From an uncultured Pedosphaera sp. (GTDB lineage: Bacteria > Verrucomicrobiota > Verrucomicrobiia > Limisphaerales > Pedosphaeraceae): 41,470 nucleotides of DNA. The position numbers and the translations under genes were made by a program. The DNA lies in assembly GCA_903930565.1 (NCBI GenBank), contig CAIYZC010000470.1:1-41470 (forward strand), read 5' to 3'. The notes under the pieces are model-generated. The model made no database searches. It worked only from the letters and a program-made list of their open reading frames with translations, and had not been told where the DNA came from. The number at the start of each line of letters is the position of its first letter. The stretch's first letter is position 1. Below are positions 34,050 to 36,072 of the stretch, in pieces.

Positions 34050-35171
34050 TTAAGGGAGATCGATTCGGCGGCCGGTGCGGGCGGATTCATGGGCGGCGTC
34101 GAGAATTTCGACCACCGTCAGGTTGACCGCGAGGGAGGAAAGGCCGGACGGGGCGATTTCGCGCCGCACCACGGCCGCCAGGTAACCGAGCGGATCGGCG
34201 TGCGGAGCAGTGAGGCGCGCCGGGATGACTTCGGTTTCCGCCGTTTTGGGCAGCCGCACCCGCAACTGCTCCGCAGTGGGCACCAGCACGTAGCCTTTTT
34301 CGCCGTAGATTTCCATGTCCTTGCGGCTGAACGGCCAGTTCCAAGAGGCTTGAATGATGCCTTGCGCGCGCGGGTAGGTGACGATGATGGTGGCCTCATC
34401 CTCCACCTTGGGATACACGCCGGGCTTGATGTGTTGCGTCACCGCGAACACCGCATCCGGCCGGCGGCCGTCCATGAGCCAGGTGAGCAGGTCCGCGCCA
34501 TAGCAGCCGAAATCATTGAGCGCGCCCCCGCCGTTGAGCACGGGGTCGGTCAGCCAGTTCAGAAAGTCCGGCGAGCAACCAATTTCCTTCGGCCCCTGGT
34601 GGCCGTCGTGGATGACCACCTTGCGCAGTTCCCCGACCGCCTGCTGGTCATGCACCATGGCGTAAGCGGCGTGGTTGGCCGTGTACCAGGTGGTTTCATA
34701 GTTGACGATCACTTGGATGCCGCCCCGGGCGGCCGCCGCCGCGATGGTGCGGGCGTGCTCGTTGTTCACCGCCAGCGGCTTCTCCATCATCACATCCAAC
34801 TTCCGCAGGGCGCATTCCTCCACCACCCGGCGGTGCTCAAAGGTGCTCGTGAACGTGGCCACCGCCTGGATGTTCGTGTGCGCCAGCAACTCCGCCAGGC
34901 TCGGGAAAAACAAGTTCGTCGCCAAATGGTAACGCTGGGCGTAACGGGCCACCAACGCCGCGTTCGTTTCCACGATCCCGGCCAATTGGATATCGTCGCG
35001 GCCGCGGGTGCTGGGGATAAAGCCCGCCGCATGATCATGCGTCAGCCCCACAATCGCGAAGCGCACGGGTGGTTTGGCGGCCGTGGCGGCGGCGGGCGGG
35101 TCGGCGGCCTGCAGGCTGCCGGCGAGGACGGCGGCGAGCGCGCAGGCGAAGATGCGGGCGGATGCTTTCAT
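34050..35171 (-). CDS. Secreted Gfo/Idh/MocA-family oxidoreductase
   Basis: This 373-residue protein has a Sec signal (FACALAAVLAGSLQAADP). It has the Rossmann domain and C-terminal alpha/beta domain of the sugar-dehydrogenase family: FAIVGLTHDHAAGF, VMMEKPLAVN (Glu130-Lys131-Pro132), and GGGALNDFGCYGADLLTWLMDG. The nucleotide loop reads VGLTHDHA instead of a standard GxGxxG. Exported members are common in Planctomycetes and Verrucomicrobia, where tightly bound NAD may be used; the substrate is unknown. The dyad at 35304-35327 lies in its upstream region. Confidence 0.9.
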   Translation of the reverse strand: MKASARIFACALAAVLAGSLQAADPPAAATAAKPPVRFAIVGLTHDHAAGFIPSTRGRDDIQLAGIVETNAALVARYAQRYHLATNLFFPSLAELLAHTNIQAVATFTSTFEHRRVVEECALRKLDVMMEKPLAVNNEHARTIAAAAARGGIQVIVNYETTWYTANHAAYAMVHDQQAVGELRKVVIHDGHQGPKEIGCSPDFLNWLTDPVLNGGGALNDFGCYGADLLTWLMDGRRPDAVFAVTQHIKPGVYPKVEDEATIIVTYPRAQGIIQASWNWPFSRKDMEIYGEKGYVLVPTAEQLRVRLPKTAETEVIPARLTAPHADPLGYLAAVVRREIAPSGLSSLAVNLTVVEILDAAHESARTGRRIDLP

Positions 35172-35303
35172 AAATCGGGCTGTGTTGGACGCACTATGCC
35201 CCCGGGAGCCCGCGCCGGCCAGCCCGGAATAACCAGCGTGCCACGCGGCGGGAACCTCCGGAATCGGCCTGGAATTTTGGTTGAATAAACTTGGACCGCC
35301 CGG

Positions 35304-35327
35304 CTTCGAATAGGGGTAGATTCGAAG
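35304..35327. promoter_or_regulatory. Operator-like inverted repeat
   Basis: CTTCGAAT (35304-35311) and ATTCGAAG (35320-35327) are perfect 8-bp arms with 8 bases between. The site is about 135 bases upstream of the minus-strand Gfo/Idh/MocA gene and about 60 bases ahead of the first TTGACA of the RNA elements, so it could serve either side. Confidence 0.4.
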
Positions 35328-35437
35328 TGGTTCTTTGACGGTCGCGGCGGTGGTCGGATACGGAAAAATCTTAATCGATTTCCGTTGACAAAATCGGGTC
35401 GCGATGATTTGTTGGTGGCGGATTACGCAGTGAGTGC

Positions 35438-35603
35438 GAATTTCGGGCGCAGATTTAAATTGTTCTTTGTGCGCCCACCAAGTTTCGGTTTTGGCTCGAC
35501 ACTGGCCTTTTTCCGAAAACCTACGTAATCCTACTGTTGTGTCACTTCGAAAATTCCCCGGGCCTCTCGGTCATCCCCTGACCTATTGGCCCGGTTTTTT
35601 TTT
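35438..35603 (+). ncRNA. Candidate structured RNA, copy 1
   Basis: This 166-base element ends in a strong intrinsic terminator. Predicted helices are: P1, GGGCGCA (35445-35451) with TGCGCCC (35470-35476); P2, TTTCGG (35483-35488) with CCGAAA (35513-35518), capped by GGC/GCC (35493-35495 with 35505-35507) around a 9-base loop; P3, the terminator. A TTGACA box is at 35385-35390 with no good -10. The same helices can form in copy 2 despite base changes. The reading frames through the identical 5' block differ between copies, so the nucleotide sequence rather than a peptide is kept. I do not recognise a known RNA family. It could be a small RNA or a cis-acting leader. Confidence 0.6.
35558..35603 (+). 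terminator. Nested-hairpin intrinsic terminator, copy 1
   Basis: CCGGGCC (35558-35564) pairs with GGCCCGG (35588-35594). Inside, GGTCA (35569-35573) pairs with TGACC (35579-35583) around TCCCC. Nine T follow. Confidence 0.88.
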
Positions 35604-35723
35604 GCCTTTGGAACTTCGAACGCGGGGCGTCCCGGGAGCTCGGCTGGCGGTCATGGGATCACGATGTTCATTTTTGGCCGGCTAGGTAACAATCCGTACA
35701 CGTAATAATTTTTGTTTTTTTCT

Positions 35724-35752
35724 TTGACAATCTCGATGGGGCGTGGTTTATT
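35724..35752 (+). promoter_or_regulatory. Probable promoter of RNA copy 2
   Basis: TTGACA (35724-35729), 17-base spacer, TTTATT (35747-35752). It lies between the terminator of copy 1 and the body of copy 2, so copy 2 can be its own transcription unit with a start near 35759. Confidence 0.55.
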
Positions 35753-35780
35753 AGGGGCAGGTAACACGGTTTGTTGGTTT

Positions 35781-35944
35781 GAATTTCGGGCGCAGATTTA
35801 AATTGTTCTTTGTGCGCTCATTGAATTTGGGATTTGGTTCGGCACTGACCATTCCTGAAACTCCACGTTACCCTACTGTTGTGCCACTTCGAAAATTCCC
35901 CGGGCCTTTCGGTCATCCCCTGACCTACTGGCCCGGTTTTTTTT
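35781..35944 (+). ncRNA. Candidate structured RNA, copy 2
   Basis: This 164-base element is the second copy of the one at 35438-35603. The first 37 bases are identical, the last 70 or so differ at only a few positions, and the middle has diverged. Predicted helices are: P1, GGGCGCA (35788-35794) with TGCGCTC (35813-35819, one G-U pair); P2, TTTGGGA (35826-35832) with TCCTGAA (35853-35859), capped by GGT/ACC (35836-35838 with 35848-35850) around a 9-base loop; P3, the terminator. The cap pair C-G of copy 1 is T-A here, a compensatory change. It ends 128 bases before the multicopper oxidase start, so it may act as a terminator-type leader of the copper operon or be a separate small RNA. Confidence 0.62.
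35900..35944 (+). terminator. Nested-hairpin intrinsic terminator, copy 2
   Basis: CCGGGCC (35900-35906) pairs with GGCCCGG (35930-35936). Inside, GGTCA (35911-35915) pairs with TGACC (35921-35925). Eight T follow. Confidence 0.88.
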
Positions 35945-36072
35945 GTCTTTCGATCCCACCCGCCCCCCGCGCGCGGGCGGTCCGGGGTGCCGGATTTACG
36001 AAGCCTTAACATTTATTGCGTGGCGGCCAACAATCACTTAACAGTCGCGGCTTAGGTTTGGGCCGCAACGAT

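Follow-up and report, generated by a model that had tools for sequence, protein, structure and literature searches.

The window, meaning the whole 41,470-nucleotide stretch of DNA that was analysed, carries two tandem copies of a structured RNA gene on its forward strand, with a multicopper oxidase and a CusB-like operon downstream of both copies on the same strand. Upstream of copy 1, divergently oriented on the minus strand, is the gene for a GFO/IDH/MocA-type oxidoreductase (34050–35171), and an inverted repeat containing TTCGAA is present between the two (35303–35328). Copy 1 is preceded by TTGACA (35385–35390), a 17-base spacer with an extended TG and the −10 element TTTGTT (35408–35413). 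The gene itself spans 35420–35603, as delimited by covariance model R1 and folding, with an approximate start and a T-run at 35595–35603. Folding and covariation place in it a helix P0, in which 35420–35427 (GGATTACG) pairs with 35524–35531 (CGTAATCC), a hairpin P1 at 35445–35476 (GGGCGCA at 35445–35451 with TGCGCCC at 35470–35476), a hairpin P2 at 35483–35518 (TTTCGG/CCGAAA, upper stem GGC/GCC), and a two-tier terminator with its T-run at 35558–35603 (CCGGGCC/GGCCCGG, GGTCA/TGACC and a C-rich loop). Covariation further points to a pseudoknot between the P2-loop strand GACAC (35498–35502) and GTGTC (35539–35543), while conservation marks out, within the P1 loop, a boxA-like motif at 35460–35469 (UUGUUCUUUG) and, further on, a single-stranded linker, ACUUCGAAAAUUCC, at 35544–35557. 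For copy 2, a promoter spanning 35724–35752 (TTGACA at 35724–35729, a 17-base spacer and TTTATT at 35747–35752) precedes a gene at 35760–35945, with P0 (GGTAAC at 35760–35765 with GTTACC at 35867–35872), P1 (35788–35819, boxA-like motif at 35803–35812), P2 (35826–35860), the pseudoknot (GGCAC at 35841–35845 with GTGCC at 35881–35885) and the terminator hairpin with its T-run (35900–35945).

The copies share two pairs of direct repeats, 35438–35510 with 35781–35853 (85% identical) and 35510–35602 with 35852–35944 (89% identical), and they were the only two found when the genome was searched with R1 (35418–35594, 164.1 bits, E = 1.6e-39; 35757–35936, 152.7 bits, E = 1.6e-36). A first-pass annotation of this DNA had located both units correctly, and the sequence bears out what it described: a head of 37 identical bases, a nested terminator followed by a T-run, a P2 apex changed from C-G to T-A, and a single G-U in P1. 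The extent it gave was too short, as P0 begins before the head and the units are longer, and the pseudoknot and the copy-specific promoters were absent from its description.

The predicted fold, shown by comparison, consists of the closing helix P0 around the hairpins P1 and P2, a pseudoknot joining the P2 loop to the linker, and the two-tier terminator. P0 was found by folding copy 1 with approximately 20 upstream bases added, and its letters differ between the copies in a compensatory manner (GGAUUACG/CGUAAUCC in copy 1, GGUAAC/GUUACC in copy 2). Copy 1 folds alone with a z of −2.77 and copy 2 less clearly (z = −1.04), thus the evidence for the structure is the comparison and not single-sequence folding. 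In alignment A2 (102 sequences), the fitting of which to a covariance model favours nested helices, 92.8% of the cells in 41 pairs and eight helices were paired, against 76.0% in shuffles, and sliding the partners by one base reduced pairing to 46% or less. Double changes occurred in 36 of the 41 pairs (28.4 in shuffles) and in 636 cells (151 in shuffles), counts that are inflated by kinship among the aligned sequences; common descent alone is an insufficient explanation of the covariation because many pair types occur in distant families. Covariation was seen in all helices, including all six pairs of P0 (helices 1–2, double changes), all five of P1 (helix 3, 89.9% of cells paired) and all 11 of P2 (helices 4–5), and the outer helix of the terminator was 99.7% paired. 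The pseudoknot, which is absent from the model and was counted alone, was 96.2% paired in A2 with double changes in five of five pairs, and its covariation score was reached by none of 500 shuffles. Variants of P2-loop strand and linker strand among the members include GUACA/UGUAC, GUUCA/UGAAC, GCACA/UGUGC, AUACA/UGUAU and GUAAA/UUUAC, and those of the two copies in the window, GACAC/GUGUC and GGCAC/GUGCC, are mutually compensatory. Across the same 102 sequences, several columns of the linker are 96–100% identical and the C residues of the terminator loop are conserved at 93–100%. Homologues with covarying helices were found outside this locus, which speaks strongly for the tandem structured RNAs with compensatory changes that the first-pass annotation had proposed.

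Judged from its sequence features, each copy is almost certainly a complete gene for a free-standing structured RNA of about 180 nt. Of 100 family members, 93 have TTGAC in the 60 nt upstream, compared to one of 100 control stretches; its distance to the model start is 33 or 34 nt in 55 members, most often 33. The family consensus, TTGACA-17-TGnTTTAnT, is of the sigma-70 type, and at least five of the eight bases after the terminator stem are T in all 100 members checked. An own promoter and an intrinsic terminator, the marks of a small RNA gene, are thus present for each copy, in keeping with an earlier suggestion of sibling small RNAs. A CTAATAC-like element recurs approximately 15–25 bases before the −35 box in many loci (e.g., L045, L047 and L040). 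A conserved coding peptide is ruled out because the frame of the tail is stopped or closed in many members, with the structure kept rather than the frame: among the 38 members that keep the exact motif, 14 have a stop in this frame, and in other members it is closed one residue upstream. The common block had been described as read in different frames in the two copies, which holds for the head and fails for the tail, where both copies share a frame (RKFPGP[L/F]GHPLTYWPGFF); the verdict against a conserved peptide is unaffected.

The family is widespread in the order of the window's genome (Limisphaerales, or Verrucomicrobia subdivision 3, going by record titles). Searching 293 genomes of the order at the DNA level gave matches in 148, while R1, built from 32 sequences (alignment A1), matched 231 of the 293, usually as a single copy per genome, including 132 of 154 good-quality genomes and 102 of 118 genera. 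R1 gave no match in the remaining 62 of the 293 genomes, many of them incomplete, and a second model built from 102 sequences (R2) recovered just two weak, divergent members from 20 of these. In the class sample, R2 matched 48 genomes of the order, with four of the order listed without a match. Neither model found a credible member outside the order in the phylum and class samples. The sole match in the phylum sample besides the window's own genome (G517, 27 bits) has no boxA, linker or pseudoknot, and two matches outside the order in the class sample (G666 and G718, 25 and 23 bits) do not have these three in combination; all look like chance. A pattern scan of public genomes matched records with the titles Verrucomicrobia subdivision 3, Limisphaerales bacterium and Pedosphaera sp., which names the order. 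Searches of phage and plasmid records and of viral contigs gave no match that would indicate a mobile or viral element. The RNA is also found in one record titled Akkermansia muciniphila (L111, CAMCWI010000043.1), which matches a genome of this order in the set (G176) and is likely to be a metagenome assembly under the wrong label.

More than one copy is present in some other lineages too (G165, G032 and family f62). The tandem copies of G032 (L191, genome of 2.6 Mb) lie about 140 bases apart and keep the pseudoknot and terminator while the boxA is missing, a natural loss that could show what the boxA is for. Divergent members in family f2 (L189 and L190, from G061 and G001) have kept P2, the pseudoknot and the terminator and lost the conserved linker.

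In the upstream half of the RNA, conservation is highest at GUUCUUUGA in the P1 loop, which is nearly invariant (G and UCUUU at 92–94% over 102 rows, counting the few rows without the region). Sequence identity and conservation indicate that this motif is probably a true boxA. G[UC]UCUUUGAAA, identical to the boxA of the RNA, stands in the rRNA leaders of three genomes of the order, approximately 125–145 bases before the 16S match, and two of these genomes have the core a second time in the 16S–23S spacer; all these leaders come from other members of the order, since the window's own assembly holds no 16S gene. The gammaproteobacterial consensus for boxA is GYTCTTTAANA (PMC5725501). NusB is encoded in five of five genomes tested. 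Against this reading, the motif sits in a hairpin loop, while the boxA of rRNA leaders is known only as single-stranded, and some members (the G032 copies) do not have the motif.

We give an even chance to the overall reading that this is a stable, trans-acting RNA made from a stand-alone gene, with a boxA that recruits NusB-S10 during transcription. NusB-S10 would bind the boxA in the P1 loop as RNA polymerase passes, and once bound may shield the untranslated transcript from Rho and help the long-range P0 helix and the pseudoknot to form, after which the finished RNA would act in trans on a partner through the invariant linker and the C-rich terminator loop. The full Nus-assisted mechanism, with each of these steps, is put forward tentatively and is somewhat more likely to be wrong than right. 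In rRNA transcription, NusB-S10 on boxA is proposed to make the polymerase withstand Rho, and formation of the leader-trailer helix of 16S rRNA is proposed to be aided by the antitermination complex. A role for the boxA as an aid to transcription and folding is favoured because an untranslated RNA with a long-range helix and a pseudoknot faces the same two problems as rRNA.

The near-identity of the linker columns and of the loop C residues would also suit a base-pairing regulator, in which mRNAs would be recognised by two seeds, the linker (UUCGAAAAUUCC) and the C-rich loop of the terminator, and the boxA either serves transcription only or is no boxA. This possibility is a doubtful one, as inspection revealed no complementarity to the leader of glnB, a frequent neighbour of the gene, and complementarity to the rRNA loci did not exceed 9–10 bases. 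Pairing of the linker with 16S rRNA was dropped, with no complementarity above chance length. An inverted repeat at 35313–35330, considered as a target of the linker, owes its likeness to the TTCGAA palindrome, and it is not a target because it would be sense, and not antisense, in the mRNA of the minus-strand gene.

The most interesting rival assigns the boxA itself a decoy role, such that abundant mature RNA would titrate NusB-S10 through its boxA and feed back on rRNA transcription, comparable to the action of 6S RNA on RNA polymerase though by other means. Consistent with such a decoy are a boxA core that hardly varies and matches the order's rRNA leaders exactly, a conserved promoter near consensus and an order-wide, housekeeping-like distribution. 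However, the linker and the terminator loop are as conserved as the boxA and would be needless for a plain decoy, and the boxA is missing in a few members; we consider the decoy unlikely. It would be similarly speculative to propose that the order-wide, pseudoknotted boxA RNA is either a Nus-factor decoy or a Nus-dependent global regulator of ribosome synthesis. If true, it would be a second 6S-like housekeeping regulator, working via Nus factors and not the polymerase active site.

The genes surrounding the RNA bear on the earlier idea that the two copies are ligand-sensing leaders with a link to copper. In 26 of 66 loci, the RNA gene is head-to-head with glnB (P-II; Pfam P-II), beyond which lie dnaA in most of these loci and glnA in some; glnB seems to have its own promoter near its start. 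The nearest large open reading frame downstream is on the plus strand in 37 loci and on the minus strand in 29, and an identified convergent gene follows in 19 (amidohydrolase in 14, dnaE in five), within approximately 130 bases in 17. The sister genome G143 has a single copy, at the glnB locus. The window's own genome retains glnB and then dnaA on a different contig, where the site of the RNA is taken by another gene. The simplest reading is that in this genome the gene was relocated from the apparently ancestral glnB site and then tandemly duplicated. At no other inspected locus did a neighbour cluster with the multicopper oxidase, and the position before the copper operon is a coincidence, arisen by chance. 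An aptamer-like fold followed by a terminator, upstream of a same-strand copper operon, would suit a leader or attenuator of the downstream genes, but the own promoter, the head-to-head placement with glnB and the frequent convergent gene downstream argue against a copper leader. The downstream genes differ between loci, where a cis-acting leader would stand on the same strand before one or a few related genes. The leader reading is largely refuted and has very little probability left.

That the RNA is a divergent member of a known family, 6S RNA or another housekeeping RNA, is hardly credible despite its size, usually single copy, own promoter and order-wide occurrence, given that a separate 6S gene scored above the family cut-off in 12 of 12 genomes of the order tested, that RF00013 gave no match to the RNA loci at its gathering score, and that the RNA in 16 homologous loci had no Rfam match. 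As the first-pass annotation had anticipated in recognising no family, a scan of Rfam 15 returned nothing at gathering score for the RNA of the window or for that in the same 16 loci. The best sub-threshold match to a small RNA, suhB / mmgR sRNA (RF00519; 14.1 bits, cut-off 41, E = 4.7), is attributed to chance. An Acido-Lenti-1 RNA (RF01687; L062:110–155, 51.2 bits, cut-off 37) is present on the same contig as one homologue and is unrelated. No description of the RNA was found in the literature, a search that did not cover a 2017 set of 224 candidate RNAs, where it could conceivably stand under another name despite the lack of an Rfam 15 match. With no match in Rfam 15, a separate 6S gene and no description in the literature, this is a new RNA family of a kind already known, the free-standing structured bacterial RNA, and unusual for its boxA.

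The analysis adds a structured RNA that has no Rfam entry and occurs in the majority of the members of a large order of environmental bacteria. With its fold, promoter, terminator and probable ancestral site described, the RNA can be looked up directly in existing environmental transcriptomes, and the boxA makes the action of Nus factors on small RNAs a testable question.

Several known systems share individual features with the new RNA. The likeness to suhB / mmgR sRNA is weak and confined to the terminator half. Riboswitch and terminator leaders have the same arrangement of a pseudoknotted, multibranched domain followed by an intrinsic terminator, but the new RNA has no conserved downstream gene and often a convergent one. 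The boxA sites of Nus antitermination, which in this order stand before 16S rRNA and in the 16S–23S spacer, have the same core, GYUCUUUGA. The boxA of the suhB mRNA acts outside of rRNA, in a study that left non-coding RNAs out of consideration (PMC5725501). In the new RNA, unlike in rRNA leaders or the suhB mRNA, a hairpin loop holds the boxA, and the RNA itself is short, non-coding and ends at a terminator. 6S RNA (RF00013) is likewise about 180 nt, free-standing, encoded by one gene per genome with its own promoter and housekeeping-like in distribution; yet 6S RNA is a long rod with a central bubble, whereas the new RNA is multibranched, with a pseudoknot and a boxA.
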